DNA from: Cheilinus undulatus
Lineage: Eukaryota > Chordata > Actinopteri > Labriformes > Labridae
Assembly (NCBI RefSeq): GCF_018320785.1
Contig: NC_054877.1
Span: 22,364,329 to 22,428,328 of the forward strand
Direction: 5' to 3'
Length of the DNA: 64,000 nucleotides
Shown here: positions 7,010 through 56,343 of the stretch, piece after piece
Numbering within the stretch: the first letter of the stretch is position 1
Layout of the letters: each line of letters starts with the position of its first letter
The notes under the pieces: generated by a model
The model's database searches: none
What the model was told of the DNA's origin: nothing
What the model saw: only the letters and a program-made list of their open reading frames with translations
Program-made: the position numbers and the translations under genes

Positions 7010-7889
7010 TGACCGGCTTCTCTCTGGTCCGAGCGGACTGGGGAGACAGAGCGGTCAGAAGAGGGAGGTGGTCTTGCCGTCTTTGTTAACAGTGGTGTAA
7101 CTCCGGACATATTAATGTGAAGGACTGTATCTGCACTGGAGCGTGGACGTGGAGCTTCTGGCGGTGGGATTATGACCCTATTATCTACCCCGCTGTCGTC
7201 GTCTACATCCCACCTTCAGCAGCTGCAGCCAGCGCGAGTGATGTCATCCATGCAGCGATTGCTGGGCTGCAAACTCAACATCCCAGCGCCCTCATCCTGA
7301 TCAGCAGGGACTTACATCATGTCTCTCTCTCTCTCTCCTGTCCTGACAAACTTACACAATATGTGGACTGTGCAACAAGAGAGAACAGGACCCTGGACCT
7401 CCTGTATGCCAACATGAAGGGAGCACACAGGTCCTCTCTTCTCCCTCCTCTGAGGAAACAGACCACAACCTGGTTCATCCTGAGACCACCTTAAGGCCAG
7501 TGGTGAAACAGCAGAGGGCCAGCACAAGGTCTGTGAAGGTTTGGTCAGCCCTGCAGAAGTGCTTCAATGTCACCAGCTGGGAGCTTTTTCAGGAGGACTT
7601 CGATGAGGACATTGAAGGTCTCTCTTGTTGCATTACTGACTACATCCACTTCTGTGAGGACAACATTGTCCCAACTAAAAAGGTTCACTACTTCTCCAAC
7701 AACAAACCCTGGAGTACTAAGGACATTAAATGCCTTCTTAACCGGAAGAAGAGGGCCTTCATGGCTAAGGACCATGAGGAGCTCAGGGCTGTACAGAAGG
7801 AGCTGAAGAGGAAACAGAGAGAGGCCAAGAACACCCACAGGGAGAAGACTGAGGCCAAGATGGGGCAGAGCAGCACTAAGGAGGTGTGA
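7010..7889 (+). pseudogene. LINE endonuclease and linker remnant
   Basis: The frame at 7117-7494 contains YPAVVVYIPPSAAA and, further on, REN-RTLDLLYANMKGAHRSS. These are typical of the apurinic-type endonuclease of fish LINEs, which nicks target DNA. The usual GDFNH motif reads SRDLHH here, so a catalytic region is altered. A second frame at 7500-7889 continues with the basic linker (CEDNIVPTKKVHYFSNNKPW, then Lys/Arg-rich helices) that precedes the reverse transcriptase. The two frames differ, so at least one frameshift separates them. Confidence 0.75.
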
Positions 7890-9596
7890 ATGGGATGAAG
7901 CAGATGACAGGCTGCAGCAGGCCTGCACCCAGAGTTAAAGGAGGCCCAGACTTTGCTGCTGAGCTGAACCTATTTTTCAATAGGTTTGACACAACCCCCA
8001 CTCCTGTGAGCTCAGACAGCGGGTCGGTGTCTCCACCCACCACCTCAGCCCCCATTCACACCTCTGCAGAAGTTTCTGCTCCCCTCCCCACCACAGACTT
8101 GTCTTCATCTCCTGCTCTCAGTTCAGCCCCCCCTCACCCCGCAGCCCTCACCTACATGACAATGGACAGCTTCCTGCAGCCCCTCCCCCCACCCTGTCTC
8201 ACTCTGACCTCCAGCCAGGTACAGAAGGAGCTCTCCAAACTCTGTACCAACAAAGCCAGTGGGCCAGACAACATCAGCCCCAGGGTCCTCAGGGTGTGTG
8301 CTGGGCAGCTTGCTGGAGTCTTTCAGCACCTTTCCAACCTCTCCCTGAGGTTGATGAAGGTGCCTGACCTGTGGAAGACCTCCTGCATTGTCCCAGTACC
8401 AAAGAGAGGACGTCCCAGCTCTCTCAATGACTACAGGCCTGTGGCTCTCACGTCACGTGTCATGAAGACCTTTGAGAGGCTGGTTCTTCAGCACCTGAGG
8501 ACCCTGCTCACTGCTTTCCAGGATCCTCTGCAGTTTGCATATCAGCAGCACATCTGTGTGGAGGATGCCATCATCTTCCTCACCCACAAGGCCCTGTCAC
8601 ACCTGGAGAGGCAGGGGAGCACTGTGAGAGTCATGTTCTTTGACTTCTCCAGTGCTTTCAACACCATCCAGCCCTGTCTCCTGAGGGACAAGCTGCTGGA
8701 TATGCAGCTACACCCCAACATCACTGCCTGGATCCTGGACTACCTCACAGTTAGTCAGAGTGGACAGCTGTGTCTCTGAGGTGGTGAGGAGCAACACCGG
8801 AGCACCCCAGGGAACTCTGCTGGCACCATTCCTCTTCACCCTCTTTACACTGGACTTCCAGTTCAACTCTTGATCATGCCACCTCCAGAAGTTTTCCGAT
8901 GACTCCTCCATAGTTGGATGTATCAGCGACGATGACGAGGAGGAGTACAGAGGACTGATAGAGAACTTCGTCACGTGGTGTGACAGTAACCATCTGAAGC
9001 TTAGTATCAGCAAAACCAAGGAGGTGGTAGTGGACTACAGGAGGAACAGGAGCCCCCCTGTCCCTGTCATCATCTCGGGGGAGGGAGTGGAGTTGTACAA
9101 GTACCTTTGGGTCTACATAAACAATAAACTGGACTGGACTCACAACACTGACGTCCTCTACAGGAAAGGACAGAGCAGGATGTTCTTCCTGAGGAGACTC
9201 AGGTCGTTCAGTGTTTGCAGCAGGCTCCTGAAGATCTTCTACCAGTCTGTGGTGGCCAGTGCACTCTTCTTTGCTGTGGTGTGCTGGTGGGGTGGCAGCA
9301 AGACTGGTGAGATCAACAGGCTCAACAAACTGGTGAGAAAGTCTCGCTCTGTGGTGAGCCTAGAAGTGGACTGTCTGGAGACAGTGGCTGAGAGGAGGGT
9401 GAAGGACAAAATCACCTCCATCTTGAATAACCCCTCTCACCCTCTCCACAACGAGCTGTGGCAGATGGGCAGCTCATTCAGCCATCGCCTCATCCCACCC
9501 AGGTGTAAAACTGAGCGCTTCAGATGCTCCTTTGTTCCCACTGCCATCAGACTGTTCAACAGCAGTGGGAGTCACAGTCTGTCATATCTGTCATAA
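7890..9596 (+). pseudogene. LINE reverse transcriptase remnant
   Basis: The first frame (to the stop at 8779) carries NKASGPDNISPRVLR, then PVPKRGRPSSLNDYRPVALT and the catalytic-block motif MFFDFSSAFNTIQP. The second block, F-S-D-D (8892-8903), is in another frame, which continues at 9024 with VVDYRR, the thumb region and the conserved tail (DCLETVAERRVKDKI). A shift between 8779 and 8892 therefore splits the polymerase core. In a working element this enzyme copies the RNA into the nicked target site. Confidence 0.8.
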
Positions 9597-26042: not shown

Positions 26043-27113
26043 GTGAGGTGAGGCAAGTTTATGATTTAAGGGGGAATAACGTATTTTGCCGTTGGTGAAT
26101 TTTAGGCGCAAATTAGGCGAACATTTTCCCAAGGAGAGCTGGAAGGCTGCTTTTTAAAAATCTTCATTGGTATCCTAAAGTCATCTTGTGTTGTTATTCT
26201 AGAACTGCATTACTTTTGTCTTGTGTCAGCGTTGTATTGTAGGCAGCATCCTGTTTGAGTTGCTAATCTTAATAGGACCCAAAACGCCAGATACACGTTG
26301 TCATTAAAAACAAATAAACAGAACAAGTCTTTCTGTCACTCACTCACTCACTCTCCCCTTTTTCTCTCTAAACTTTTTATTCTGGGGCAGAAGTCTTAAT
26401 AGTTATTCCCTCTACCTCACTGCCTTATGCTGACACATTTATCACTTTCAGGTGAGGCATGGCTGAAAATGACGTAGACATCTAGATATATCCTAGGAAA
26501 AAAGATTTAACTTGTTGTAAAACTGACTATTTGTAAAATTGCTTTTGTTGAAGAAGTATTAGTGTGACCTCAGTTTTTACAGAAAAGAATTTTGAAAAAT
26601 GTTTTTGGAACTTGAATTAAAGGGACATTGACATGTCTTATTTTTATTCAAAGACTTAATTTTGCAGTTCAGCTGTTAATCTGTGGCAGTGAGCAAAAAT
26701 TGAAATCCCAGAAAAACGTGCTGCTGAGAAGAGGAAGAGCGCATTGAGATGCACATGGTTGTGTTGAGTTCAGGCTCAGAAAGCTGGAAACCTACTTCCA
26801 CTGGTATCTTGTGTGTGCCTGAAATGTTGGAGTTCAGGAGAGGCATTAGTTATAAGACATCTACCTTACTTTCTCTGTATGAAAACATGTGAAACGACCT
26901 TTTGACCCACACTGTTGGAGGAGGTTAGCACTGGTTTTGTAAACATCCACCTGAAGGACACATACCTAAATGAAGTTAACTGATTATTGGCACCTCCCTG
27001 TCACATAAAAAATACCCAGCTGCAGTGTAAAACTACTACTGTGTACTGAATCGTCAGTTAAGGTAAAACATTTTTAGTTGAAGCACTTCTAAAAATCTCT
27101 AATCCCTTTTCAG

Positions 27114-30100
27114 ATGGCACTCTTAGAAGACGTTGCATTCAACTCCAACATACCTGTACCTCTGGATATAACAGTAGCAGTGGTCTACTCCATTTTTGGT
27201 GAGTTAATCTTCATGGATTCAAACTAATTTAGTCTTTTTCCCCTCTTAACAGAAAATAAAGAGCTAATAATGACACTAATGATGCTGTCAGTAATGAGAT
27301 TTCTACTTTCTCTGTTAAGGCTAAATGAGAAACAGCATGAAATGAAAGAGCACATTATGATGCCTTGGAAGCGTGCTACTTTAATATTTCTACTGTTACT
27401 GAGTAAATCACTCCAATATCATCTCTTTAATAACCACTGTGTATATGAATAATTCTTGTTCTCACCTTTCATCAGAGATGCACACAGACTTAGAGAGGGC
27501 CGAGTGTTACAGCTGCAGGTTCAACTACATAAGGGGCCTCTGTTAGTAAAACACTTTGCCATGTGCTGAAGAAAAAAATCCTACCCTTATTACCTTTCAT
27601 CTCAGTCTTTGATCTTCACAGATTCCTGACATTTAAGGTTACCAGCACACTTTTTAAAGGTGACCAAACACATACAGTTTGGATTTTAGTGTGAATCATT
27701 ACTTTCTACGAAGACCTTAAGGGGGCAACACCAGAGAAAGAGAGGTTTCTGGTATGGATATATGCACTCCTCCATGTGTTTGTGCACCAGAAAGTTCTGC
27801 CATTTTGTCTCAGATTTTCACATATGCATGACAAACTTTGATATAGCACACGAATCTTGTCTGTGAGCATGTGAAACTTTATTGTGAAAATATATAATTT
27901 TCTCATGAGCCTGTAAATCTTAATTGTGAGCACCTAAAACGTACCTGTGAAGGTGCTTGTTTAGTTCAGTTGGTAGCAGGTGCTCATATACAGAGGCTAC
28001 AGTCCCTCATGTACTGGCAGCAGGACTGGATCCCAGGCTTGATGCTGTTTGTTGCATTTATAAGAGAATTCCATCTGGGTACTTTTCCCAAACAATACCA
28101 GCTCATCTCTATCTGAGTCCGTGTTGTAGTCGAGTCACCAAACCTCGAGTCAGAGTCGAGTCCTGAATCCCTAGTGTTCAAGTCCAAGACAAGTCTGAGT
28201 CACCAAAGAAAAATCTGAGTCAAGTCCGAGTCGAGTCCTCTTTACCTGAGCCCGAGTCAAGTCCCCATTACCTAAAACCTAGAGTCAAATTAAATTAAAT
28301 GATCAATTATTTTTAAGCCATCCCAGCTTTACAGCTGGGTTACGTTGATGTGTTTCATTAATGTATGTATTTCCTCAACTTTTTATTCTAAAGGGCCAGA
28401 GGAGCTATTACACTCTTCATCTATATTAGTTATATTAACAGGATTATTTGTGTATTTAGGGTGGAAAAATGAGACAACATGTTTTTAACTGCACTCATAC
28501 TCTACATCTATCTTATATTAAATATTCCTCCTTTAAAATGACTGGATTTATTCAGATTTCTCATTAAAAACTAAAATTCCAATTTTCTCCTTGGGACATT
28601 TGAACACATCATTAAAAGGTCTTAAATACTCTAAAGTCTGAGCTGTAATTAAACACATCATAATTTTTCAGTATGCCACCTCGTTTAGCTCACTAATCAG
28701 CGTTACCTCACCATTGGTAACGCAGATTTCAACGATGGATTGATATTTTTATAACTGACAGGACTCACTACAGGGTTTAAGAGTTTTTGTCACTCCGTCC
28801 AAGACTGAGGAGGATTACTGTACAGCAGCAACAGCAGCTAATATGACGAGTCTGAGCAGCTGATGGAGATTTTCTGCAATTCAAAGGTAGGCTGGCTGCG
28901 TTTTAGTTTAATTTCTTGTAAAGATTACCGCGGGAATACAGAGAAGAGCCACAGGTTTAAGCTACCTATCAACCTATCACCTCCTCTCTCTATCACCCAG
29001 GCTCCCCCGCTCCTCCTGCTCTCTCTCCTCTGGTTGTTTTCACAGACAACAGGTTAGACACGCGTGAACACGCATGCAGGTGAACACACACTGGGCGCTG
29101 CGTGAACACTGATCAGTTATATGGGGTTTTCTCACACAAAAACAACAAATATTACAGAATAAAATAGTCTTCAGCAAAAATGGTTCGAGTCCTCCACTTC
29201 ATCCTCGAATCCTGACGCAGTTAAAGCTCAAGTTCGAGTCCAAGTCCGAGTCACGAGTCCTCCAAATCAGGACTCGAGTCCGAGTCCTGTTCTCAAGTAC
29301 TACAAGACTGATCTGATTGAAAACACTCCATCAAATAAATGGTGTTGAAGGATGGGGTCTTTAGGGATTGAAAAGTTTGAAATATAAAATTATAGTTATT
29401 GGGAGCCCAAGTCCACTGGTCAGTAAGTCAAACATAAAAACTGTGATTTCTCTGAATATGGATTGACATTGTAACATGATAAAATAAACAAAGTGATAGG
29501 TGCATCCATCTTATTTCTGGTGGCTCTACTAGATATTATATTGTGGTTGGAACTACCAGTGACATAAAGGCAATAGAAGCATGTTTCTCCTAATGGCATA
29601 CTGTCTTGAGATGAAAGGAAAAAATCCTCAATTTAGTTAGTATTGCTTTATTTTTTTTTAAATCAAGCATTCAGCTAAATGTTTTGGTAAGCTCACAGTT
29701 ACAGTATGTTAAATTTATGAAACACCTGGTACCTGTTATTGTACATCAACCTGAAAAGGTCACAACATGAATCATAGATATCATTAAAGTAAACTTAAGA
29801 AGGACTATTTGGTGAAATAATAGTTTCTAAAAATCCACAAAACTAGAGAAAAACGTTAAAGATCTGACTGGGCTTTGCATCTCTGCATTACTGTGCGAAT
29901 ACTGATATGAAGCTACAAAAGTTGGTTAATACAATGGTGGACTCAGAGCCCCCCTTGGTGCCCTAATGTTTAAGAAAATTCATGCAAAGTGCCCTCTTGT
30001 ATGCCACTATGGTAGATGAGAACAATAAAGTGCCCTCTATGGTGCTTTCTGAGTGACAACATTTGCCAGATTGGTCCATTTAATGCTCTCTGAGTGGACA

Positions 30101-33100
30101 AAATTATACAAATATTCTTTATTTATTTCAACTTCCCATAAGCACAACAATCTCCTTTTGGTAGTAGAAGATATCATTAGTAAACATTAGTCTTAGGCCG
30201 CTTTCACATTAGGCCCAGTAGTTTTGAGTCGCGCCGCGATCCTCCCCCTCCCCCTTCCCCCCTGGCTTGCTTTCACACTGGCAATATCGAACAGTGCCAG
30301 GGCACACTTGTGTATTTACTCGGTCTGAAACAGCAGGTGGCGGTATGCACGTAGCTGGTTTACAACCCCGCAAAGGAGAAGAGAGAAGAAGAGGCTGCCA
30401 TGGCAACCACTGGGGTCATGACCTGAGCGAATATTATTTTTGTTTTGACCTGGCAAAAAGTCCATCCTGCAGCCATGGATGATTAAAATCACTTTTAGGA
30501 TGCCAGCAACTTCGTATCTGCACATCTACTACAGCTCAGAGGATTAAATGGGCTCCAGCTGAGTAGACACAACGGTTTTTGAGGTGACAGGAGACTTTTA
30601 TTGCCACTGCACCTCCTCTCACTGACTCCAAATTGTGTTCATCTGTAAGGTGAGTCACAACAGACTGTTTATTGGGTGGATTCTGATGATTTCCGCCCTT
30701 TATTGAGGAAAAATTTGAACAAACTGCCGCGCTGTGGAAAGAAGTTTAGCTTTTATGATGATGTCATAAAGGTGACACGACGCTCTGTCCTGTATCCGAG
30801 TGCAGTTGCATTCACATCTCATCTGAACCGTGCCAGAGTCCACTTGAATCATGCCCAAGACCACCTCCCCAAGTGGGCCCGGGCCCGGTGCCCCGGTGCA
30901 TTTCATTTGCATTCACACTACCCAAACAACTGGACTTTGGGCTCAAGAGCACTCGGATCCGGGACGAGGCCCCTAGTGTGAAAGCTACCTTAGCAATCTC
31001 AGTCACATATACTACAGTACCCATAATCTTAGAGTGGTACAGTGACGTCAATGGTTGGTTTGCTGTGTGTGGAAATGTCTACTACACCTGTGAATATGAC
31101 TGTCAGCAGTTGATTATAACAATAAATGCCATCTGAGCCACAAATTATGATATATTCAAAATGTAGCCTAAACACTATAATATAGATACGTTTAGAAAGT
31201 AGGTATGTGAATGGTTTAAATAAAGCCTATCATTAACAATGAATTAAGTGAACCACTGTGGATTCTGGGTTAGTACGCAGTCTTGAACCATTTCCTCCAT
31301 TTTACAAGTGCTATTTTTGTGCCAGAAAAATCCCCACAAACATCAAGGAGATTTCCCCAATCTCTTCCTAGTTCCATATAATTCACAAAAAATTCTCCAA
31401 AACATCCAAACAAATTTCCTAACATTTCCAAGGAAATATTTTGAAAATATAAAAGGGCAACTCCCCCAAATTCCCAACCAAATTTCTCAACAAGTACAAA
31501 TAAGTTTCCCAAATATCCATGAAAGTACCTAAACATTTCAAAGCAACAAAAAATGCAAATCAGATTTCCCAAAATTACAAATATACTTTCCAAAGTCCAT
31601 GGTAATATCAATAATTTCCAAACAAAATTTACCAGACATCCTGGTGAGTCTCTCAAATTCTCTTGAAATCAAAATAAATAATGATTAAAAAAAAAAAAAA
31701 CAAAGCAAGTTTCCTGAATAACTTCCAGTGAAATTCTCTAAAATATGCAACCCCCAAAAATTTACATGAAAATTCCAGAAAATTTCATTGCAAATCCTCC
31801 CAACATTTCAAACAAGTAACATGAACTTTAATGGACATTTTTAGCAACTGTCTCAGAAAAGAAAGAAGAAATTATTACTATATTGTATGGAAGCCAAAAT
31901 ATAATATCCTCATATGTACATGCAGGGTCTTAGGAGGTTGAAGTAAATCCTGGCCAGTGTTAGTTTTGGCAGCTATTTTTAATTTTAGTCTTCGTTTTAA
32001 TCTTTAAATGAAATGCATTTAATTTGTAGTCACATTTTGGTCATTTCTATCCTTTTTAGTTTTAGTCTAGTTTTAGTCCATAAAAAGTTCTCGTATTTAG
32101 TCTTAACTTTTGGTCCAAGCATTTATTCTCTTGCCTAAATCTGGTACCAAATCATGGCACTGTGCACCCTGCCAAACCTGGGGTCCCTGCTCTCTCTCTC
32201 AGCTGAGAGTCAGTAGAGATACAGCTACATTGTCTTTTAACAGATTTACCGACATCAGAGAAATATCATGGATTTTGAATGATGAGAACTACAGTAGTCT
32301 AGTTTTAGTCATCTTGATGAAAACTAAACTTAGTTTTTGTCAGTTTTAGTCATCACAGATCTATTTTTGTTAGTCTTAGTCTAGTTTTCATCACAGAAAA
32401 AAAGGCTGTCGACAAACATTTTTAGTCATAGTTTTAGTCGACAAAATTAACACTGATCCCTGCCATTAGGCTTCTAAGCCCCAGAGTTCATGTAATGTCC
32501 ACATTCAGGGCTTTTGTCTGTTTATCCTATAGGAGTATGTTCACTGTTTGGAAACAGCACGCTGCTGTATGTCTCCTACAAGAAAAAGCACCTCCTGAAA
32601 CCTGCAGAGTACTTCATCATCAACCTTGCTGTTAGTGACCTGGGCCTGACTCTTTCCTTATACCCAATGGCGATAACTTCAAGCTTCTACCACAGGTACT
32701 ACACTCTGCATCTACAGTAGCAAAGAGACAAAATGAAAACTTGAATGCCAAAAAGCTATAATGTCAAATTTTGCCTTTAGTTCAGACTCTATTAAGAGGT
32801 TATTTTATTACATTTGTTTAGCAATATGTTGGCTTGTGAGTTCACAGAGAGTGTTAATTCTCCTGCTACTCTCTTCTCAACTTCTCCCGGATCGATTTTC
32901 CTCTCTGCCTCTGCTTTGCACCCTCCTCTTTCCCTTTCTCACACCCCCTTGCCCTCCTACGCAGGTGGCTGTATGGGAAAACAGTGTGCTCCGTGTATGC
33001 TTTCTGCGGCATGTTGTTTGGGATCTGCAGTCTGACCACTCTCACCCTACTGAGCGTGGTGTGCTTTGTGAAAGTGTGTTATCCTCTCTATGGTAAGTCT

Positions 33101-36100
33101 TCAAAGGACCTATTTTTTGCCCACTGAAATGACAAAGGATTAACCATCACATTCCTAAGTGGCTGAGTGTTGATTTATCTGCAGAAGGAAACGAAGTGAT
33201 AATCCCTCCACAAAGCAGTGCACATTAGCCTTTCTTTGAGGACCGACAAGTCTGAGGGCTCCACTCAATACCCATTACTGTGTGATGTTGGTTAATGCAG
33301 TGCAACGGGGCCCTTAATTTGAACTCACAAAATCATGATTTCCCAGGCAGTGTCACAGGAAACTTTTTGAACTCAACTCTCATTTACAATCTAATGGTAT
33401 TTTTTGCCACTTTATCGTTGACAAATGATTAAGTGACAACGTTCCTAAACTGCAAAAATATTTTTCCTTTGGTTACTGTATTTTGATGTCTCATTGTGGT
33501 TTCTAACCACCTGTACTTTAAAAACAAACCCCTCAGTATCATTACTTAATATGCATATATGCACCAGCAAAAGTGGTAATGTCTGTATGTCACATGCACA
33601 GAGGCTTCTGTCTGTGGGCACAGAATCAAATAAAACCTGTGGCTTTTTGTTCTCTACATGAAATTCCTAACTCACTCTCTTTCTTCCCAGTTTCAAAAAG
33701 TAATAAATGTATACGTATAATTTACTGAAAGTTAAGTCAAATTCCAGTTGGTTTTGTTGATCTCAGCTTTGTGTTCATAGATAGAACAGCTCTTACTTTA
33801 GCTGTTGCTAAAATGTTCAAACTTTGTGTTTTTTCAAATTAAGACCTCCCTATCTGACTGTTGGCCTTACAATGGTGTGGAGAAAGAGGGACACCGTGTC
33901 TATGAGCATAATAAGAAAGTGTCTAAGAGTACAACAGAAAGAGAACCAGCAAACTTTGAAAACAGAAAAATGATCCTCTTTGAGATGCACATTAATCAGT
34001 CTATTGTTTCAGCATTTGTCTGCAGCTCTCTGGGGCAGAAATGTGATGACAGGAAGGGAGAGGAAGCTTGGGGGTGACAGGGCTGTGCCAAAAGAGAGCA
34101 TTTTATTTTGCTCTGAAAATCTGCTCTGAAAGTTGCATTGAAAGCCTTTAAACAGGTAACATGACTCGTCCCTCACTCCAGTCACACCATATTTATTGGA
34201 CTTCTTTCTATTTTTTTCAGTCTGAAGTCATCCAACCTCTTGCTCTACCTGAGGTTGCTTGATATCTATCAGTGCACCTTTTTTCCATCAGCGCTCTAGC
34301 TAAAAGGATCCAGGATCTAAGGGATGAGAGATTTTAACATATCACTGCAACTGCAAAATCAAAACTCCACAACTGCTCTTGCTAGAGGACATCCACAAGA
34401 CAGAATGTTCAGGGTTCCCTAACACCCTCTAAAAAACCCTGGGTGCCATTGGATCTTGGTTACGTAAAGATAAATCCTTTTGATGTAATGTGCCAAGCTT
34501 CGCTGAGAGTGAGGAGAATATCCCTATTACATCCCATAGAAACCAAATCCAGGATAATCTTGTTTGGAGGTTTGATGCAGTACGAATGGCTGCATGCTGC
34601 ACATAAAGCCATTGGTTGTATCCTCATTCACCATGAATTACCAAGGAAGTTCATGCTTTAAGGAAACTTCAGCCAGTCTGAACCTATAGACAAATGCTGT
34701 GGCTGATTATTGGGTTCTGCCATCTTGGATGGCTGCCACAAATGCAGTGACAACAACAGAAAGTTGGATTTAAAGTATTAGACAGCTGCTAATAAATGTT
34801 CATTAATACAATTATCTTACACTTAGTTAGATTTTACATTGGAGGCATCATTTACATGTAGCATTTACCAATATGTCAAATATCTGTTTGAGAAATAGGG
34901 GCAGGCCTTGACTGCCTGCCATATATTTGTAATGAAGTACTGTGTAGTATACCATTATTCTGCTAATTTGTTAGCTAAATATTAAACACTGGCTGACAGT
35001 GTGGGTCAACACATTTATTTAAATGAATGTCAATGACAACATATTTCTCATGTACCTGCAGGCCTTAATGCAGCCCTTAGTCAATAATGTTCCCTGTTTA
35101 GTAAAAGAGCAATACAAGATTGCCTTATGAATTGCCTGGAAATCAACAATAAAATGACGTGTCTCCCTATCCTTGCTCTGTTTTCCTGCTTTGGTAATCA
35201 GCTGGAATGGGTGTCTTTTCACTAAAGGTCTAAGCCAATCCCATTCTGCCACAATTTTATCATCCTACTATTGTTTTATTTTAAACTCTGTTGTTTCTGT
35301 GTGACTGTTGCAACCCTCCTCCACCCCAGCCACCTCCATTACATCTCATCAGTGTCCAGGTCCAGCTTCTCCATGCCATCCTGCATCTCTTCATCACCAT
35401 GTCATCTTATTAGTGTCCGGGTCAAGCTTTTCAGAAGTCCACTCCTCATCTTAACCGTCCTTTCTTCATCCCCACTACCTGTGTCTGGAATCTATAGGGG
35501 GTATCCTTTCCTGTTGTCAGCCTCACTACTCCTTCAAGTATGTAAAAACATCACCTTGGAGTCTATTTACCAAAAACAATTTATATTTTCTAAACATGAA
35601 AGGAAAAAAGGGGGAAAAAAGCTGTCATTCAAGCACGTGTTTGAATGTTCTTGTAATCGAGTGTCTTACCTGCTGCGATTCCTCCAGCTCTGTTAAAAGT
35701 AAACAGGAGTCCTTGGACCTTTACTTTTTCCTCAGCTGTCTTTTGCTAATTCTGTATGCAAGTATATCCATATCCTTATATAAAGACGGCCCTCCATGGA
35801 GGACTGTCCAGATACAGTATTTACACCAACATCTTTAAGAGAACAGTGAGCTCAGCAAACCCTTAAACTGGACAGCCACCTCAAGAGACAAAAACACACT
35901 TAAACTATAGATACAGTAAGATTAAACCATAAACTAGCTTTGCTCAAGTAGACTGTAGGCTGACATGGAGAAGTCCTTCTGGGAAAACCTCTGACTATAA
36001 AACATGCAGTACATGCTGCTTTGCAGATTTGACTATTAGCCATAATGTCATACACTTCAAGGTAGACTTTCCACAAGCTAACTTTCTATATTATCCACTT

Positions 36101-39100
36101 CATTTGAAGAAAAGCATGGTTTATTTGCAATAGCAGTCAACAGCACTACAATCTACAGGGATGTCTCTGGCATATTTTGCTTTGATGCGCAAAACTTTTA
36201 CGTTCTGTCCATTTCTACAATATCTTTTTTCACCAAAAGATGTGATGATGATAAATTATCATTGTCTTGTTTGTACAGAATGCTTTTATTCTGGATTTGT
36301 TAGATGTATTAAGGTAAAACCAATGAAGAAAAGTCAAACTGTGGGGTACACAGATGGCCTAGTGGTCTAAGGCACGACCCATGTACGCAGGCGGACCAGA
36401 TCCTGTATCTGACTCTATCCACAGTCCTCTGTCAAATAAAGGCACGAAAAAGCCCAAAAATAAATCTTAAAAGGAAAAAAAAAAGAAAAAAAAGAAAAGA
36501 AAAAAGCCAACATGTTGCACATAAGCACCTAGGAGGAGAGCGGTGACAGCGTCAGTCAGATTGGACAGGCAGAACAGCAGAACAGCAGTCACAGAGTAAA
36601 CGCACACCCAGTTTGAAAAGGGTTTAAGTAGCAGTGCTAGTAGCTCCCTCTGCCCACACTGGAACATCTCAGCACTGAAAGACGTTTAGTGTTAGGGACT
36701 GTAGCCCAGGGGTTCCCAAACTTTTCAACCCATGACCCCAAAATAACAGTAACAAAGACTGGGGACCCACACTGTCCCAAAGCTTGGTTGTGGCATATCT
36801 GAACATAGCCATGCACATTCCAGATATTTTGTGCAGGACTTTATTAAGCAATGCTTTGGTTTCAGCATATATCTCAATAAATGACCATGCTTTTATTTTT
36901 TGTTTTAACCAATTTTATGCATACATTTCTACAAAAATGCGCAAAGTACACAACTTAAAACCATTTAGATATACTCTCTGTTTTCATCGCGACCCCCACT
37001 TAGTGTCTCATGACCCCCCAGGGGGTCCCAACTCCCACTTTAGGAACCACTGCTGTAGCCTGCATAGCCATCAAACTAGTGACTCAATGTATTTCCCCAT
37101 AAAATGATTTTTTTTTTTTTTTTAAGATTTATTTTTGGGCATTTTTGTGCCTTTATTAGATAGAGGAGGACAGTGCATAGAGTCGGAAACAGGGTCAAGA
37201 GTTGGGGAGAGACATGCTGTAAAGGGCCTCAGGCCAGATTCAAACCCGGGCCGCCTGCGTACATGGGGAGCGCCTTTGACCACTAGGCCACCTGCTCCCC
37301 CATAAAATGATTGTTATTAAATTCCAGTTCTACTGTGCCCCCCACTGGATATGTAGTTATTTGACTTTGCACTGTGTATGAATGAGTGATTTCTTTTACA
37401 ATCTTTGTTTTAGGTTTCTAAAGCAAATAAGATTATAGGCACTATAGGTACCTAAAAGTTTCATATGCATTAAAAAATGTCATATTTTATGATCTGCAGC
37501 CTGTACCTTTCTGATTTTGAAGAACTGTACTTTTCAAACCCACAAATAATACAAAATTAATGTAATGTGTTTTCACAGGGAACAGGTTTAACTCGGTTCA
37601 CGGCTGTCTGCTCATTGCCTGTGCTTGGATCTATGCCTTGCTGTTCGCATGCTCCCCGCTGGCCCACTGGGGGAAATATGGACCAGAGCCCTACGGTACG
37701 GCTTGTTGCATTGACTGGCGCCTGTCCAATCAGCATACCACAGCGCGCTCATTCACCGTGGCACTGTTCATCTTCTGCTACATCCTTCCATGCTGTGTTA
37801 TCGTAGCTTCCTACACAGGTATTCTGGTCACAGTGCACGCATCCCGCAAGAATATGGAGCAGCATGTTTCAAGGCAGACACACATGAGCAGTATCCAGAC
37901 AGTTATTGTGAAGGTGAGAGGAAAGTTTGACACAACACATACCTGTGTTATTCTGTAATATATTTTGTAACATGTTATGTGGCCTGATGGTGGGGTCAGA
38001 GGTTGGGGGTTGCATGCTGTAGTTTATGGCTAGATTATCTCAGCACCTCCTCATAGACCAGAGTCTTCCGGAGAGCTTCTCTCCCATCCATTTGTTTCAG
38101 AAATTGGCGTTGACCTCAATAGATCCTCCAGTGATGCAGCTGCTCATTAGCAGGTAGTAGCTGTGGCTGTACTGTGATGGATGAGAGGCTACTGTTGCCT
38201 TTGCTGATAAATGATCATTATCATTACCCTGTCTCTCTGATAAAAATAACTAATTCATACAAACTTAAGGGTACCAAAAAGTGCCTTACCTCCTGCACCA
38301 TCAGAATGCAGTTGTGGGAGTCTAATAAAGCACTTGCAAGGAATAAGCCTGGTGAGATATTTTATTTATATCTTTTAACCTAAAGGTAAACAGTAGGCAT
38401 ATATACAGTTAAAAAAAATAATAAATATTGTGTTATTCCAATTAAAACAACTTTAAAATGCATGTTAACATTTTAGTTAAAAACATACTAATTTGAATTC
38501 CTTGTTGTGGGAGGCACCTATATAATTTTGGGGGGGGTCAGTTTACTCTTGCACCTCAGTTGCACCAAAACTGGACTACATGTCTTGCTTATTTGCCACA
38601 ATTTCAGTGCCAAAACAGCATAAATGTGTTGGAGAAAGCCAGGGAGAAAGTTAGACAAAGTTATCATTACTGTGAGATCTAGAGCTGAAACAATGCATGA
38701 CTGAACAGACAAAAAGACACTTTGTTGTGCCAGATAAAGGACTTAAAGATTTTGAAGTGCATGGATGAAGAAATTGAGATTTGCTTGGAATGAACTGATT
38801 AGGCCATTAAGAAGTCCAGCTTAGTGGCCTAATCAACTATAATCATACCTCAACTATCAATACATGTAAATATACAGGGCCTATATAAACTATTCATCCC
38901 CTTGGATGTTTTACACTTTTATTGTTTTATTAAATCAATCATGGTCAATACAATATGGCTTTTTTTTAAGAGAAAATTACAAAAAACCTCTTTAATGTCA
39001 AAGTAAAAAACAGATTAACTAATGCTAATTAAAAATATGTAATGTAAAATAAGTGACTGCTTAGATATTAACCCCTTTCAAGTCAGTATTTAGTAGTTGC

Positions 39101-40532
39101 AACTTTGACTGCAATCAGAGCACTGAGTCTGTGTGGATAGGTCTCAGTCAGGCTTCCACATGTGGACACTACAATATTACTCCATTCTTCTTTGCTCAAG
39201 CTTTGTCAAATTGCATGGGAATCAAGCTTGAAAAACCCTCTTCTATTCCAGCCACAAAATCTCTTTTAGATTGAGGTCTGGTTCTCAGCCACCCCAGAAC
39301 ATTCACCTTGTTGTCTTTAAACCATTTCTGTGTAGCTTTGGTAGTATGCTTCGGGTCGTAGTTTTGCTGGAAACTAATCTTCTCCCAAGCTGTATTTCTC
39401 TTGCAGACTGAATAAGATTGTCCTCCAGGATTTTTCTATATTTTGCCACATTCATTTTACCCTCTACCTTTATAAGCCTTCTTGGGCCATGATTGATTGA
39501 TGAGCTCAATAAAAGGATAAAACATCTAAGGTGAGGAATACTTTATAAAGGCACTGTAAACATACAAGCAGTGGCTTTGTTTACAAAGATGCAAATAACT
39601 GGAAATGAAGCTTTACGTGAATAACAATGGGACATGTAAAGATGCCATTCGGAAGATTCTGATCCAAAACAGCCCATTCAGAATGAAGTTTTATTTCACA
39701 CAGGAGAGGTGGTTCATGTTGATTGTTATTCCGTTCGATTACCATGTACACACTTGTTCTGAACATTTCTTTTTGGTCAGGGTTAAATTGCTCTTACTGT
39801 ACATTCCTGCTTCTTTCTTCACCTTCAGTTTGATTTGGGAGAACAGTAGAAAAATAACAGAAACATTTCCCCCTTTTCTCTTGTACCCATCAGCTAAGTG
39901 TCGCTGTCTGCATCGGTTTCTTTGCGGCATGGAGCCCATATGCCGTGGTGTCCATGTGGGCAGCCTTTGGACGCATTGAAAACATCCCCCCTCTTGCATT
40001 TGCCATGCCAGCCATGTTTGCAAAGTCCTCCACCATCTACAACCCCATCATCTACCTGATGCTGAGGCCCAACTTTAGAAGGATAATGCGCAGGGATCTG
40101 GGCACCCTCTGCCACTGCTGTGTGAAGAGCTGCCTTTGCCCTGAGGGTCCATGCAAGTGCTGCTCCAAGCTGGAGATCAGGGTCAGGCTACGCAAAATCC
40201 ACAGACAAACCAATAAATTCCCCTCTTCTAACTCCTCTGCACAACCTCCTTCAGCATGCCTAAAAGACCACAACTGTGAGAGGTGTAAGGATGCTTTTGA
40301 ATGCTTCAGACACTACCCCCAGATGTGTGGTGTTACCAACCCAGCAGTCAGTGAAGTCTTATCTAAGGACCACAACAACCCAGTTCAGCAAACAAATAAG
40401 CAAAAGACCAAAAATGTGTGCCACAAAAAGTCTCTGCTGGCCAGCATGTGTGCAAAAAGAACTACAGAAATAGACAACTTACATATTAATTTAGAGATGG
40501 TTCCAGGGCATGCTAAAGTGGCTTGGCCCTGA
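27114..40532 (+). CDS. Neuropsin-group (OPN5-like) opsin, complete, five coding exons
   Basis: A light-sensing seven-helix receptor of the OPN5/opn6-opn9 group. Coding exons are 27114-27198, 32533-32695, 32965-33092, 37579-37913 and 39894-40532. All junctions are GT-AG and in frame, giving 449 residues. Start: the ATG directly follows an acceptor. Visible features: helix 1 GNSTLLYVSY (N36), helix 2 NLAVSDLG, helix 3 cysteine C91 paired with C168, Glu162 at the position of rhodopsin E181, helix 6 AAWSPYAVVS, retinal Schiff-base lysine K281 in MFAKSSTIYNP, and NPIIY at 287-291. PEPYGTACCIDW in loop 2 closely follows human OPN5. Odd points: the D/ERY motif is V115-C116-F117 in a well-conserved context (LLSVVCFVKVCYPLYG); the amino end is very short; and a long cytoplasmic tail has eight Cys between 310 and 327. 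I could not place it within the opn6-opn9 subgroups. Confidence 0.9.
27952..28090 (+). mobile_element. tRNA-derived SINE fragment
   Basis: The text tagttcagttggtagcagg is a tRNA A-box-like start. A degenerate B-box-like stretch (ggactggatccc) follows about 50 bases later. It lies in opsin intron 1 and is too decayed to be a tRNA gene. Confidence 0.5.
28110..29310. mobile_element. DNA element with CGAGTC-rich inverted ends
   Basis: The left end (28120-28265) is crowded with GAGTC and CGAGTC words. The right end (29185-29310) is crowded with the same words, and the outermost parts (gttgtagtcgagtca / inverse of cttgtagtacttgag) are inverted. The interior is A/T-rich without a transposase. It lies in opsin intron 1. 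The superfamily was not determined. Confidence 0.55.
29311..30192. other. Opsin intron 1, nothing further recognised
   Basis: No repeat border or exon could be supported. Confidence 0.4.
30196..30989. mobile_element. Harbinger-like non-autonomous DNA transposon
   Basis: The flanks are TTA on both sides (30193-30195 and 30990-30992). The termini are inverted: GGCCGCTTTCACATTAGG at the left and, inverted, GGTAGCTTTCACACTAGG at the right. A 3-base TWA duplication fits PIF/Harbinger. The interior is about 0.8 kb with no intact transposase. Open frames on both strands near 30676-31136 look incidental. Confidence 0.65.
31290..31810. repeat. Degenerate short-period repeat (AACATTTCC/AAATTTCCC words)
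   Basis: The words aaatttccc, aacatttcc and aaatttccaa recur at irregular 20-30 base intervals over about 500 bases. It is strongly strand-biased in C versus G. It looks like an old tandem array or the interior of a hAT element similar in style to 63014-63930. The open frames in it are products of the repeat bias. Confidence 0.45.
31955..32455. mobile_element. hAT-like non-autonomous element with TTTTAGTC words
   Basis: The ends are inverted: CAGTGTTAGTTTTG at the left and the inverse of CAGTGTTAATTTTG at the right. The flanks atcctggc and atccctgc fit an 8-base duplication with mismatches. TTTTAGTC/TTAGTC words recur throughout. The element stops about 77 bases before opsin coding exon 2, so it supplies most of the sequence next to the branch-point region. 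Confidence 0.65.
33093..36340. other. Opsin intron 3 (left part), nothing recognised
   Basis: Several open frames occur (33805-34077, 35271-35696), but they have no known family and no splice support. The 35290-35470 part is pyrimidine-rich with two similar phrases (catctcatcagtgtccagg / catcttattagtgtccggg). Confidence 0.4.
36343..36507 (+). mobile_element. tRNA-derived SINE with A-rich tail
   Basis: The start ggggtacacagatggcctag followed by tggtctaagg is a tRNA-like A box. The body ends aataaaggcacgaaaaagcc and then an A-rich tail (36468-36505). The same family is inverted at 37110-37296 and direct at 55077-55215. Confidence 0.75.
36707..37052. mobile_element. hAT non-autonomous element with perfect 8-base target duplication
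   Basis: The direct repeat ctgtagcc flanks both sides (36699-36706 and 37053-37060). The termini are inverted: CAGGGGTTCCCAAACTTTT at the left and, inverted, CAGTGGTTCCTAAAGTGGG at the right, typical of hAT/Charlie ends. The interior (346 bases in all) carries no transposase. It lies in opsin intron 3. Confidence 0.85.
37110..37296 (-). mobile_element. tRNA-derived SINE with perfect target duplication
   Basis: Read on the minus strand, the element has the A box (gcctagtggtca), the B box (gggtttgaatc) and the end aataaaggcacaaaaatgcc, followed by an A tail that shows as the T run at 37108-37123. A direct repeat ccccataaaatgatt flanks it (from 37095 and from 37297), the mark of target-primed insertion. 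The short interval to opsin exon 4 (37579) makes it intronic. Confidence 0.88.
37914..38870. other. Opsin intron 4 (left part), nothing recognised
   Basis: No repeat border or exon could be supported. Confidence 0.4.
38875..39556. mobile_element. Tc1/mariner-related non-autonomous element
   Basis: TA flanks both ends (38873-38874 and 39557-39558). The termini are inverted: CAGGGCCTATATAAACTATT at the left against CAGTGCCTTTATAAAGTATT at the right, then TTGGATGTTTTA against TTAGATGTTTTA. The minus strand keeps decayed transposase-like text (39303-39509). It lies in opsin intron 4. Confidence 0.7.
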
Positions 40533-40599: not shown

Positions 40600-41570
40600 A
40601 AATAATGATCTTATTCAGGAATGAACTATATGCAAAAGAGTTTGGGCAGGTGCCATGGAAACCTATTTATTTTTGTATGACTCACTCTGCTTTCTTCTTA
40701 CTCTGAGTTTTATTTTAGCAGACAGATATTTAAGGGATGTTTTGTATGCACTATTTTACACAAATGCTTTGATGTACAGTGGACAGCAAGTGCAGGGGTT
40801 GGGTAACGGCTGTAAGCCTTAATTCAAGAATAATGTGCAGAATACTTAGAAATGGAGCAACTCAAAAGGTAAATGAAAGTAAACAAAGAAGTCCAAAACT
40901 AATGCAATGGTTGAAGTGTGCTGCAAACCAAGCAAGGAAATGTCAGAGACAACCTTCATTTTGATGCCTGGCATGAGAGAGCTGAGCAGGGGTTCTATTT
41001 CCCTGGAGCTAGGGCGAGCTGTGAGGCTAACTGAGCTCCCAATAACACAACCTTCTGCCCTAAGTTACAGCCACCTTTAAGTGTTTCTTAACGTAAGTTT
41101 TTTTACCGAGCCTTTGCACAGGTCAGTCACTGTACATTAACAGTCTTAGTATTTTTTCTTATTATTATTAAATCTATTTATTTATTTGCACTAATGTATC
41201 CCTTTAACTGTATTTTGTTTTGGCATTGCGGAGCAATGTGCTTTTTTTGTCAAACAAGCCTCAAAACCACTGCACAAGGACTTTGTGAGGTAAAACTTGT
41301 GTTTAAGTCTTTGTCACTTTACAAAATGCAAGTTTTGAATTCAAATATCTTTTAAAATAACGGCACTCCAACACTGTATTTTCAGATTTTGCAATATCTT
41401 AAAAACATGAAGCCCCAAAAGCATTATTACACAGTTACTGTAGGTCTGTAAGTATTTGAACAGCAACTTTTCTTTTTGATTGAAGTGTAGACATTCAGCT
41501 TTAATTTAAAGGATTGCATATGAATTTGGGACAATTAACTCATGAGCATCTGATGTAAAAGGGAAAAAGA
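40600..41570. other. Convergent intergenic DNA, nothing recognised
   Basis: This lies between the opsin and ripk1 3' ends. A phrase near 41443-41470 (taagtatttgaacagcaact) recalls the end of another fish Tc1/mariner repeat, but no pair was found. Confidence 0.4.
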
Positions 41571-41574
41571 TTTC

Positions 41575-42090
41575 TACAAAGTAAGTAATTAAAAATATGA
41601 AATGTAAAATAAGTGACTGCATAAATATACACCCCTGTAAAGTGACTGACCAAGTTCAGCAGAGGTCCAGCTGATTAGTGTGAGTAGTCTCAGATTTAGT
41701 TAAATGGGGATGTTAGTGTGTTCTTTTCTCTTCATGGTGTAATGGTAGCCAGGAATACTGATTAACCAGTGACTGAACCTTCCAGACACAGATGACCCTT
41801 TAGGTTACAATCCCCTGAGACACATTCCCTGCACTCAGATGATCCCGATTTCACTAATTGTGAGACTGCTAACACCAATCAGCTGACTGTTGAACTAGGT
41901 CAGTCACTTTAAAAGGGGTGAATATTTATGCAGTCACTACTTTTACATGACATATTTTTATTTTATTGACTTTGTAGAAATCTGGTTTCACTTTGACATT
42001 AAAGAAGGGTATTTTGTAATGTTTTTTGTAAAAAAAAAAATTATATTGACCATGATTGATTTATAAAATCAATTAAAAGATAAAATTATA
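41575..42090. mobile_element. Tc1/mariner-related repeat with internal inverted repeats
   Basis: Gtgactgcataaatatacac (41614 onward) is inverted near 41915-41940 (gaatatttatgcagtcac), enclosing the block ttcatggtgtaatggtagcc. The right flank (attatattgaccatgattga) matches, inverted, the left end region of the element at 38875. It is non-autonomous. Confidence 0.6.
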
Positions 42091-47191: not shown

Positions 47192-50100
47192 CTATGAAGA
47201 ACCGCAGGAGTCCAGAATTTTCTGTATGACATCTACCTTTATGTTGCCTTCCAGAGCTCGACAAAGCTTCCCTACTGTGCAGCCAATACTTCCCTCCTTC
47301 ATTTTCCAACGATCCAGCATCTGGTGCACCATCTCTGGCAGGCCATCACGGTAATAGTCATGCTCAATGGTCTCTATTTCCACAGTGGTCAGACCCAGGC
47401 GCCGCCCGCAGCGCTTCCATCTGTTCCCTATGTTATCCCTCAGCAGGTCAAGATGCTCCTCTGTCACAGCATGGTCCTCTGAGTGACACAAGAGAAACAT
47501 CTGTAAGGGCAAACTGCACTTCAACTCTAATGAGACAGTGTTGAAATACTTCTGTTTTTGACTATTTGAAATCTGTTTTGTTGTTGTTGTTGTTGTCTGC
47601 ACTACTCACCTGATCTGTGAAGAATTTGTACTATGTTTTCAAAGCTCCTGTGAGTTTATAATGATTTTGGCTAACCCAGTGGTGAAAGATGTACATCCAT
47701 CTCTGTGCCTCCTGGTCTTTACAGGTTTATAAGTATTGTCTGATAAAATCAAGCTATGTCATCTTTTTACAGTTGTTTATTGCTGTAATGATTAAATCTA
47801 AAGTTTCTGTGTCAACTTTTCACTTCAGGCTCTTAGGGGGTGTGATTTTCCTCCATGAGAATAAGAACAGAGGACCTATTTCCTCCATTTGTTTTTCATA
47901 TTAGCATCAAATCTAATGATGGACAACATGGCAGTCCAGAAATATATAGTTAAGATATTTTGATTGCCCATAGGCAATAGGGACTGATCTGTCTGTTAAA
48001 ACTTGAAAGAAAACATAGATACCAAAAAAATTACATAGTATTTGGACCAACATTTTTATTTTGTTTAGGTAATTTGAAAGTCTGGCCACCAAGGTGACTG
48101 TCAAAACAAAATCTGGCCCTCATATAAATGTAGTTGATGACCCCTGATATACAGTGCACATATAATAGCTGACAGGTGGATTTCTGTCAAAATAAAATGA
48201 ATCAAACATTTATTTATTCCTGATAAAACTGTTGCAATCATGATCATTTTGGGGTTTATTTGATAGCTGTAGGGATTTAAAGACAAAAGATAGCCTAAAA
48301 ACCACAACATCTCTTTTCCTCCCCCACATTTTCCGAATTTTATAATCTTCTGGGGGCTGGATGGGGAGATTTGTGGGGCCTGATGTGGTCCCTGGGCTGC
48401 CAGTTGATCATTGAAATAGAGGTTTTCAAGCGGCACATGCTCCCATCCATACAACCTCTCTCAGGAAGACCTTGCAAATTTCAGCAAGACAATGCTAAAC
48501 CACATATCACATTAATAAAAAATAAAATGCAGGAACTGGCCTGCCAGCAGTCCAGATCTTTCACCGACAGATAACATTTGGTACATCATACAGAAGGCCC
48601 AGGACTGTTGAGCAGCTAGAACCCTACATCAGACAAGTATGGGACAACATTACGCTCCCAAATCTCCATTAACCGGTCTCCTTACTTTCCAGATGTTTAC
48701 AGACTGTTGTTAAAAGAAGACGTGAAGCTACACAATGGTAAACATGGCCCTGTACCTGCTTTTTTTTTTGCTGCAATTAAATTCAAAATGAGCAAATATT
48801 TTTTATGAAATGGTAAAATGTCTCAATTTCAACATTATGTTACATTATATATATTTTTTGAATTGAGGTTGTACTATTAATACAAAATACTATACAAACT
48901 ATTCATTACCATGCTGTTGTAAATTCATAGAGAACCGAACTGAAAGAACTGTTTTGTGTTACTGTTGGTAGATTGTGAATGAAAACCAAGTCTGAATTGT
49001 AAACTTCTGTAAGGAACTGTTCCCTAATCATAAAGCATGTTAAGCTACTTTCCTCTGTTTGTGGTGCTTTATTTGTCACCAGTGAACCTTTATGTTGCTG
49101 TTTATTTGTGTATTTTTGGGTTCTTAGTAGGGCTGGGTATTACTAAGAACCTCACGATTCAATTCAATTTCAATCTTTAGGTTGCGATTCAATTTGATAT
49201 TGATTCGGTTTTGATTTAAATGCTTTGATGTTGATTCAGTAAGAAGCAGAAATACACAAATGACCTGTTGACAATTTTTAATAATTATTTTCATGCCCAT
49301 ATGAACAAATGTAGTAGGTCACCTCACATTTTTTAGCAATAAAACATCTGAAATAAAAAATTGCACAATAATAACTTACTTGTGCATAAGGAGTACAAAA
49401 GTAAAAAGCATGCCAGTTCTGTATAAACACTGAAAAATTAAAGTGCATGTAAACTTTAATAATATTTCTTTCCACTTGGAAATTGTGATAAACCTCACAT
49501 AACATGGTTATGGTTGGTTGTTGTTTGGTCGAGTGCAGCCTCCGTCCATACAACGCAAATCCCACGCCAGGAGGTGAATTGATTCAGAGGATTCACTGAA
49601 TCGATATTGAATTGAGGGGGGAAATATTGCGATGCATCGATTAATCGATACTTTTACCCACCCCTAGTTCTTAGTGAGTTTTACTTTTACGATCTCTGTG
49701 TGGTGGACTATTTTGGAGAAAAAGAAACCAAGTCACAAACCCAGACTTCAGTGTTAGGCTTCAAACCTAACTGCACCCTGGCCCAGAGTCAAAATGTTAT
49801 TATATTACATGAGAGAATTGATGTTATTTACCATATTTCAGGAGGCCGTCTTTGATACGGAAGATAGCTGAGCCATTTGCAGTTTGAGACGACAAACTAT
49901 GAGTGGAGTCGTAACCTCTGATACTCATCAAGTTGTTGCTCCCGATCTGGATCCCGCTGGCATTATGAATGTAAAGAGATCCTGGAAAAAGGACAAAGCA
50001 GATACATTAAACACTGCCTCTCTTGTACTTTTAGAGAAACAACTAGTGACATCTTGGATAGCTACAATGGCAAGTTTCTTAACAGTGCTGTGTTGAAAAG

Positions 50101-53100: not shown

Positions 53101-56059
53101 TAACAAGAGAAGAATTTTTTTTTACATAAGGCCAGGTAGGTTTGGATACCTTTTTCTCCTTGATAAATGAAATCATCATTTAAAAACTGCATTTTATATT
53201 TACTCAGATGATCTTTGTCTAATACTAAGATTTGTTTCATGATCTGAACCAATTCACAAATATGCAAAAATTAAGAAATCAAGAAGTGGGCAATTACTTT
53301 ACTTTACATACAAAAGAGAATAATTTTATTAACTCAACTGATAATCTCTTTTTTGTGATTAAACTGCACTGGGCTGTGGTTGATAATGATAACAACACAA
53401 ATAAGAAAAGAAAAAATGCACCTTTAAATGTTGGTCGTTGCGCTGGATTGTGATCCCAGCACCTCTTCATGAGCTCAATAATCTCTGCAGGTGTGTCAAC
53501 AGGAATGAGGTCCTCTGCTGGTCGATCACCCTTTCGGACACACTGGATCATTTGATCTTCACTCCTTGCATCTAGAATAAGAAAAAAAACACTTTATTTG
53601 ATTATCTATACTGGGTTTAACTGATAATATAACAATTAAGATGCTAAATCAGCATCAAAGTTTACTTATCAATCGACAAAATGTATCATACTCACTGGCG
53701 TATGGCTCCTCTCCTGTGAGGATGACCCAAACCACAATTGCAAAGCTGTAAACGTCAGACTTCTCGGTGGACAGTGTATGTATACTCTCCAGGTGCTCAG
53801 GAGCCATGTAGCTCAGTGTGCCGGCACCCCTTGCCCCGGATGAAAGCCCCATACGACTCTTCCTGCGAGACTCCTCCCTGGTGAGTTTGCTCCATGTCTG
53901 ACAGGTGGCCAGGCCCAGATCTGCAATCTGGAAAACATAAAGTTCAATATACAGCTGTTAAATGCATTATTGTGGCAGAATCTTGAACGTGTCCTGGTTT
54001 CATCTGTACCTTGATGTGAAAATCCTTGTCCACTAAAATATTTTCAGGCTTGATGTCTTTGTGTACGACGTGTCTTTCTGTGAGGTAAACCATCGCCTCC
54101 AAAATCTCCAAGATGATTCTCCCCTTTATCGATACTGGAACGGAAACCTAGGGATGGGGAGAATTTAGAGTCTATATGGCTAAAAAATGGTTTTAAAACT
54201 CATAATATGAATTGTAAAAGGTTAAAAAGAATAAGAGACAACTACTAAGACTACAGAAATACAGGTTTTAGCCCTCTTACCTTCTCTAGCATGACCAGCA
54301 GGTTACCTCTGGGGATGAGCTCCATAACTAGAGAGCAGTCTCTATCCTCCATGATCACACCCAGCAGCTTCACCACACGCTCATGGTTCAGGCTTGCCAT
54401 GATGTTCCCCTCCTCCAGCAGTGATCTTTTATTCTCCCTGGAAAGCAGAGCAAAAAGTGTGAGATTTTTACCTCAATTTTATTGTCCCTGAAGGGAAATG
54501 TGATTTGCAGCCAGGCAAAACCATAAAACATAGAGGACGTAGGTACAGAGACGCTTGAAGTTAAAAGAAAAATAAATATCCATAAATACAAATATACAAG
54601 GTAAAATGAGAGACGGTGCTCATTTAGGGCCTTTGATGGTGCTAACATAGAGCCTTCACTATTAGAGATGGGATTTATGGCTCTTTGAAGGGAGCTTTTA
54701 TTTTTTGAAGAAGTTAGCCAGGGGGTAACTCATATTATCTGGGAAATAATCACTGGAAGGGATGATAGGGGACAATTTGGCTCAGAATCATTCAAACATA
54801 GACATCCCACATGTTTTTGTCTTGTAAAAGGAATGAGACAAATCAGGCCATTTCTCATGCCACTGATTTTACAGGCAACCTTAACAATGCTTTCCTTTTT
54901 CTTTTTTTTTTTTTACATCCGTAGAAAATTTTCTAGTGCACAGGAACAACATCCTGTTAAGTCTTTGAACAAACTCAAAGAGACTACTTCTTAATGCAAT
55001 ATGTAAATACATGTTGGAAGCAGTTCACATATCAGCCACAATATGACTGAGCAACGACTGAAACAGTGTCCTTATTGGGGCGCATATGGTCTAGTGATTA
55101 GGTCGTAACCCAGGTATGGAAGCTAGTCTTCCAAGCGGACAGTGCAGGTTTGGCTCAGACCTGTGGCTCCTATCCTTTTTGAATAAAACCAAACAAGCCC
55201 CCAAAAACACATCTTTAAAAGAAACAGTGCTCTTATGAATGCCGGCCAAAATTCCAAGCTTGTGTTGCCTTTACAATCATCCAGACAAACTGTATCATAG
55301 AAATGTTATATAAAGATATTTGCTTGTAATGAATTACAGACCCTAAGCTTACTTGGAGGTTTATAGAATACTTTTATAATAGATCAGCAACCAGTTTTCT
55401 ATACCAGATAAGTCAGAGTTTAGATACAATTTCGTCCTTTGAAATAAAAGCTGTAAATTCCCATGCTAACACCACAATAAAGGGTCAACAGAGAAAGCAA
55501 AGGGATCTAAGAGTACAAAGGTAACGACAGAGAAGATATCTGATCTAAAACAAACGGGGGCCATACGAACATCCGTTTTTCACGCATCTCTTTCTAGTAA
55601 GTAGTGAAAAAGGAAGTATGAAGAAATCAGATCATGCCTTTTCAAAAGGAAAAGCCTGAAATGGGCTCACAAACAAAGCTTATAAATAACTTTACAAAGG
55701 AAAAATTCTGTTGTCTGTATCATATAATATTGTGCAGTTAATGTACTTTGTATTAGCTGCCAGGAAGGGAAAAAAACACTAGTCTGAGTTGTGCAGACAG
55801 CCTGGATGGTAATGTCCTGCTGAGGGCACATGACTGTAGTTAGCATTTAGGGGAATACCCAGCTCACAACAGCAAAACCAGATTCACTCATTACTTACTC
55901 GCTACGAAGAGGGCCAGTGTACATAGTCTTCAACACCACTTGCCCGAGGGTTACGTGGTAGCACAGGTAAACTTCTCCAAATCCTCCATAGGCCAGGGGC
56001 TCTTTTTTAATGAGATCAGTCGATCTCATTTGTAGTGAGGAGTGTGGCGCGGTGGCCAT
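47192..56059 (-). CDS. ripk1: Receptor-interacting serine/threonine kinase 1, complete, ten coding exons
   Basis: RIPK1 is the cytosolic kinase and scaffold of TNF-receptor, TLR3 and death signalling (NF-kB, apoptosis, necroptosis). Exons, 5' to 3': 56059-55899, 54437-54281, 54147-54010, 53927-53696, 53571-53422, 51416-51340, 50958-50883, 50737-50117 (or 50135), 49981-49832, 47478-47192, giving 682 (or 676) residues. Kinase: GGFGEVYL loop, K44, the V-V-H-K-D catalytic loop (HKD, D137), DLG (D155), [14 protein letters not shown]. The intermediate region keeps the RIPK1-specific YHKYGS. The RHIM core is IQIG (548-551) in [11 protein letters not shown], and the death domain occupies 588-682 ([16 protein letters not shown]). 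All four parts align with human RIPK1 in order. The ATG at 56059 lies just after an acceptor (aaaacag); the frame upstream is open but probably intronic. The donor of exon 8 is ambiguous. Confidence 0.95.
48440..48850 (+). mobile_element. 3' part of a Tc1/mariner-type transposase relic
   Basis: The frame at 48371-48574 includes [20 protein letters not shown], the conserved middle of a DDE transposase. The later DNA (gttgagcagctagaacccta, then gtttacagactgttgttaaa) is typical of the fish family whose ends lie at 2215 and 14785. It is broken and lies in the last ripk1 intron. Confidence 0.6.
49128..49666. mobile_element. hAT non-autonomous element with perfect 8-base target duplication
   Basis: The direct repeat gttcttag flanks both ends (49120-49127 and 49667-49674). 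The ends are TAGGGCTGGGTAT and, inverted, TAGGGGTGGGTAA. Just inside are ATTCAATT/TCGATT words. No transposase is present. It lies in the last ripk1 intron; a truncated relative is at 3166. Confidence 0.88.
51751..53300 (-). mobile_element. Tc1-like transposon with long terminal repeats, decayed
   Basis: Long inverted ends of about 200 bases (51751-51965 against 53100-53300) share aaatgatgatttcatttat and tatccaaacctacctggcc. The minus strand encodes a Tc1 transposase with its paired DNA-binding helices ([19 protein letters not shown], then [20 protein letters not shown]) and later catalytic-domain pieces, but it is broken by stops and shifts. It lies in ripk1 intron 5 and reads in the same direction as the gene. 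Confidence 0.85.
54438..55070. other. ripk1 intron 1 (3' half), nothing recognised
   Basis: There is a C/T-rich run at 54890-54916 (minus-strand purine). No exon or TIR could be supported. Confidence 0.4.
55077..55215 (+). mobile_element. tRNA-derived SINE
   Basis: The start ggggcgcatatggtctagtg is an A-box-like head. The text then diverges from the copies at 36343 and 37110 but ends similarly (caagcccccaaaaacacatc). It lies in ripk1 intron 1. Confidence 0.55.
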
Positions 56060-56343
56060 CCCTGTTTTACGATAAAACAGCTGAACAATACACACATCCA
56101 CCCACAAAAACACAAGACGAAAACTGACAAAATGCGCTAATACTATTGATGAACTAAGTATCCAAACGTTTATGTAACAGGCTAGGAGGGTAAGATAGCT
56201 AAATAGCATCCATATTCTTAAATTTAGGCAACTTGACAAACTCAGCCCTCGAAATGTAGACCCCTCTGTTTAAGCAGAAAACTTTAAAGACTGAATTCAC
56301 TTCCACAATTAGAAACGGAGGTAAACTGAAGTAAAGTTGTTAC

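Follow-up and report, generated by a model that had tools for sequence, protein, structure and literature searches.

A probable fish Opn5L1-type opsin in Cheilinus undulatus with Val-Cys-Phe in place of the D/ERY motif

A single opsin gene of Cheilinus undulatus is, with a probability that we put at roughly 0.86, an intact fish Opn5L1 (Opn8); judged from its sequence and by analogy with the chicken protein, its product would bind all-trans retinal, signal through Gi in the dark and be switched off by light. The D/ERY motif at the end of helix 3 is replaced by V115-C116-F117, and the missing motif is a known trait of the Opn5L1 subgroup and no surprise of this genome. The deciding feature, and the pointer to the subgroup, is Cys169 at bovine position 188, which was overlooked in the preliminary description of this DNA. 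The window, meaning the whole stretch that was analysed, comprises 64,000 nt of contig NC_054877.1 (positions 22,364,329-22,428,328 of the forward strand, assembly GCF_018320785.1).

The opsin gene is found on the forward strand at 27114-40532 and consists of five exons (Table 1) that join into a single open frame, with 449 codons ahead of the stop. All four introns start with GT and end with AG. The encoded protein is a member of the rhodopsin family (Pfam 7tm_1, PF00001, E 2.5e-43) and has K281 at the position of the retinal-binding Lys296, the combination that defines an animal opsin of the class A GPCRs. When the window was searched with tblastn for a second opsin copy, the significant matches were restricted to the five exons, the best of three other matches having an E value of 1.9. 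An AG is found immediately 5' of the first ATG used (27112-27116); exon 1 possibly follows an intron in the 5' UTR, or it may start at a splice acceptor with the true N-terminus upstream. Shortly after NPIIY there is a cysteine-rich stretch, CHCCVKSCLCPEGPCKCC (residues 310-327, 40110-40163), which from its composition may include several palmitoylation sites.

Table 1. Exons and key residues of the opsin gene, in positions of the window.
Feature	Position	Strand	Remarks
Exon 1	27114-27198	+	first ATG used; N-terminus and start of helix 1
Exon 2	32533-32695	+	helices 1-2; joined frame, tblastn
Exon 3	32965-33092	+	C91 at 32987; helix 3 with V-C-F
V115-C116-F117	33059-33067	+	GTG TGC TTT, codons at 33059, 33062 and 33065; 3.49-3.51, the D/E-R-Y position
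Exon 4	37579-37913	+	helices 4-5
F148	37644	+	exon 4
E162	37686	+	exon 4
C168	37704	+	exon 4
C169	37707-37709	+	bovine position 188, the retinal-adduct cysteine of Opn5L1
Y193	37779	+	exon 4
Y204	37812	+	exon 4; 5.58
Q232	37896	+	exon 4; 6.30
Exon 5	39894-40532	+	helices 6-7, W250, K281 at 40023, NPIIY, cysteine-rich tail, stop

With C91 (bovine 110) as the reference point, V115 is residue 3.49, C116 is 3.50 and F117 is 3.51. In the phmmer comparison with solved structures the V-C-F stretch aligns without gaps to ISIDRY in 4ww3 and to LAIERY in 1f88, which we take to be squid and bovine rhodopsin, respectively. Among the best 60 of 533 matches, 4ww3 was at the top (E 9.5e-45) and 1f88 came after it (E 7.9e-42). 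No opsin named as Opn5-type was found among these best 60 of 533, and the nearest comparison for helix 3 was squid rhodopsin, the protein to which structure 2z73 also belongs (PMC8766551). The alignment to bovine rhodopsin is gap-free from query residue 36 up to the third intracellular loop; V-C-F is thereby fixed at 3.49-3.51, and the pocket and loop positions can be counted directly. The preliminary description had placed the loss of all three D/ERY residues between 33050 and 33080 in an otherwise intact receptor. Both statements are borne out, the first by the alignment of helix 3 to the rhodopsins, with the three codons inside that interval, and the second by the presence of K281, NPIIY (287-291), C91, C168 and E162. 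The gene structure, V-C-F, Cys169 and the kept K281, E162, Y204 and NPxxY are direct observations.

A single base change would turn each of the three codons into one for D/E, R or Y, so few mutations are needed for the change, and this proximity would also fit a decaying gene or an error of the assembly or gene model. Such an origin is extremely improbable: no stop or frameshift interrupts the 449 codons in the five exons, the third codon positions of the opsin gene have a GC fraction of 0.587 against 0.394 for the window, and V-C is shared with the published V-C-C of chicken Opn5L1, which makes sequencing error or chance very unlikely. Of the five alternative frames of exon 3, four contain stops; the remaining one, forward frame 0, is open, is mismatched to the exon phases and gives a non-opsin reading. 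On this check and the open five-exon frame we reject a frame or assembly error.

The fish opsin belongs to the same neuropsin group as Opn5m, the mammalian-type neuropsin, and the two have Lys296, Glu181 and the disulphide cysteines in common. Opn5m differs in carrying DRY, as described for human and mouse (PMC12579811), and in having Trp167, Thr188 and Leu212, while Opn5L1 is given as having Phe or Tyr at 167, Cys188 and Phe212 (PMC8766551). None of these four Opn5m features is found in the fish protein, which has V-C-F, F148, C169 and Y193 at the corresponding positions. The Opn5L1 pocket residues are matched in two of three cases (F148 and C169), the third being Tyr193 for Phe. C169 lies beside the disulphide cysteine C168 (bovine 187), one residue past it. 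The second extracellular loop (ECL2) reads YGPEPYGTACCIDW, and around C169 13 of 14 residues are identical to a chicken Opn5L1 peptide printed as YGEEPYGTACCIDW with an engineered lysine (PMC5871776), the comparison being limited to these 14 residues.

Chicken Opn5L1 has Val-Cys-Cys for DRY and activates G protein all the same; such a replacement is described as characteristic of the Opn5L1 proteins (PMC12579811). The view of V-C-F as a peculiarity of one gene has therefore to be given up, since replacement of DRY is a published trait of the subgroup. Searches among open-licence PMC papers turned up no fish opsin described with V-C-F. The fish protein, known here from its sequence, resembles chicken Opn5L1 in the V-C start of a non-DRY helix 3 end, in Cys188, in Phe/Tyr167 and in ECL2. 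What counts against the assignment is that it has Phe and not Cys at 3.51, and Tyr193 at position 212 where the chicken protein has Phe. The photocycle is determined by position 188 and not by 212 (PMC8766551), so Phe212 was not treated as defining by itself. The substitution T188C alone gives Xenopus Opn5m all-trans retinal binding and a photocycle (PMC8766551), and Cys188 is reported to be completely conserved in the Opn5L1 subgroup, which ranges from cartilaginous fish to sauropsids (PMC5871776).

Zebrafish Opn7b is likewise a neuropsin-type fish opsin; it is described as Gi/o active in the dark and inactivated by blue/green light, with a cycle said to resemble that of Opn5L1 (PMC8302595). 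This is the behaviour predicted for the fish protein, and a gene of the neighbouring Opn7 clade, in place of Opn5L1/Opn8, would be expected to give similar dark-active, light-inactivated behaviour. We consider that placement improbable. Opn7b is reported as a separate clade with about 42% likeness to chicken Opn5L1 overall (PMC8302595), against the 13 of 14 ECL2 residues found here in one short stretch. The dark activity of Opn7b makes reverse behaviour plausible in a fish.

With assignment to Opn5L1 preferred, the gene is probably opn8. The chicken protein is written 'Opn5L1 (Opn8)' in PMC9368030, and opn8 genes are given a range from Holostei to birds in PMC10547888, whereas a statement in PMC8814574 has opn8 absent from 'avian reptiles'. 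Because of this conflicting usage the gene is called Opn5L1-type, probably opn8, and the a, b or c copy is left unassigned.

The published behaviour of chicken Opn5L1 is that of a dark-active, light-inactivated and self-regenerating photoreceptor: after trans-to-cis photoisomerisation Cys188 forms a thio-adduct with retinal, followed by thermal return to the all-trans form (PMC5871776). It takes up all-trans retinal exclusively (PMC8766551, PMC5871776), and its visible absorption is at 510 nm. Its Gi activation is given as about fivefold above that of chicken Opn5m and 100-fold below that of bovine rhodopsin, and all-trans retinal is the agonist behind its dark activity; for the retinal-free protein the same account gives zero detectable activity (PMC5871776). 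It follows that loss of DRY alone gave no ligand-independent activity in the chicken receptor.

By analogy we infer that the fish protein behaves like chicken Opn5L1 in photochemistry and Gi coupling. In the dark, K281 would bind all-trans retinal, and the receptor so occupied would activate Gi without Arg3.50. Light would convert the all-trans retinal to the 11-cis form, and signalling would stop. The thiol of Cys169 would then add to the retinal and allow thermal rotation back to all-trans, upon which the receptor would switch itself on again. V-C-F would be the fish form of the DRY replacement that is V-C-C in chicken.

The preliminary description had proposed that an opsin without D/ERY may be constitutively active. 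Dark activity is indeed likely, but its cause in chicken Opn5L1 is the all-trans retinal agonist and not the loss of the motif. The proposal gains something from chicken Opn5L2, another neuropsin that lacks a typical E/DRY and keeps G protein activation; it has I-R-F, to which its authors suggest that some agonist-independent basal activity may be due (PMC3279408). Unlike the fish opsin, Opn5L2 keeps the Arg and has Thr188, and it is UV-sensitive and bistable (PMC3279408, PMC8766551). As to the unusual coupling that was also suggested, the partner of chicken Opn5L1 is Gi. The further proposal of action without a G protein is unlikely in the light of these relatives, as Opn5L1 with V-C-C and Opn5L2 with I-R-F both activate G proteins.

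The ionic lock of class A receptors is formed between 3.50 and 6.30, and their active state is supported by Tyr5.58 and Tyr7.53. According to the alignments, position 6.30 is Gln232 in the fish opsin and Glu in squid and bovine rhodopsin; together with V-C-F this leaves the receptor with neither partner of the usual ionic lock. It retains Tyr204 (5.58) as well as Tyr291 (7.53, in NPxxY). The Gi-coupled state might be reached and held through these two tyrosines without Arg3.50 in a manner not identical in its details to that of chicken Opn5L1, with a possible change in basal activity or choice of G protein; we offer this tentatively and regard it as rather doubtful. If true, G protein activation would have a naturally occurring route that dispenses with the Arg. 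The replacement of all three D/E-R-Y residues and of Glu 6.30 would also suit a receptor that has left G protein signalling and serves as a retinal photoisomerase or retinal-binding protein. This is highly improbable, given that chicken Opn5L1 and Opn5L2 activate G proteins in spite of V-C-C and I-R-F (PMC12579811, PMC3279408) and that Y204 and NPxxY are kept here.

For the subgroup, the question raised by the missing motif is thus largely answered by a Gi-coupled receptor working in reverse. With this gene, a small opsin subgroup that is on in the dark and off in the light gains a fish sequence; Opn5L1-type receptors signal in the absence of the Arg that is most conserved among class A receptors. 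In genome annotation a V-C-x triplet at this position is to be read as a signature of the subgroup and not as damage.

Scanned against Rfam, the 64-kb window yielded nothing at the gathering score. Portions of a RIPK1-like gene lie tail to tail with the opsin gene: a death domain at 47195-47605 (-), for which RIPK1 is the best solved match (E 4.8e-26), and a kinase part at 53658-53957 (-), also matching RIPK1 (E 3.9e-20). The translation of a frame at 55898-56269 (-) resembles the beginning of the kinase but has no Pfam match. A reverse-transcriptase ORF at 7880-8776 (+) (RVT_1, E 1.6e-10) is probably a non-LTR retrotransposon and is adjoined by an open frame at 8874-9593. Two diverged repeat elements are found at 38858-39573, in the last opsin intron, and at 41557-42085, beyond the opsin gene. 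Their inverted arms are 87 nt with 77% identity and 55 nt with 85% identity, respectively. The two elements are 88% alike over 58 nt and look like non-autonomous DNA transposons.
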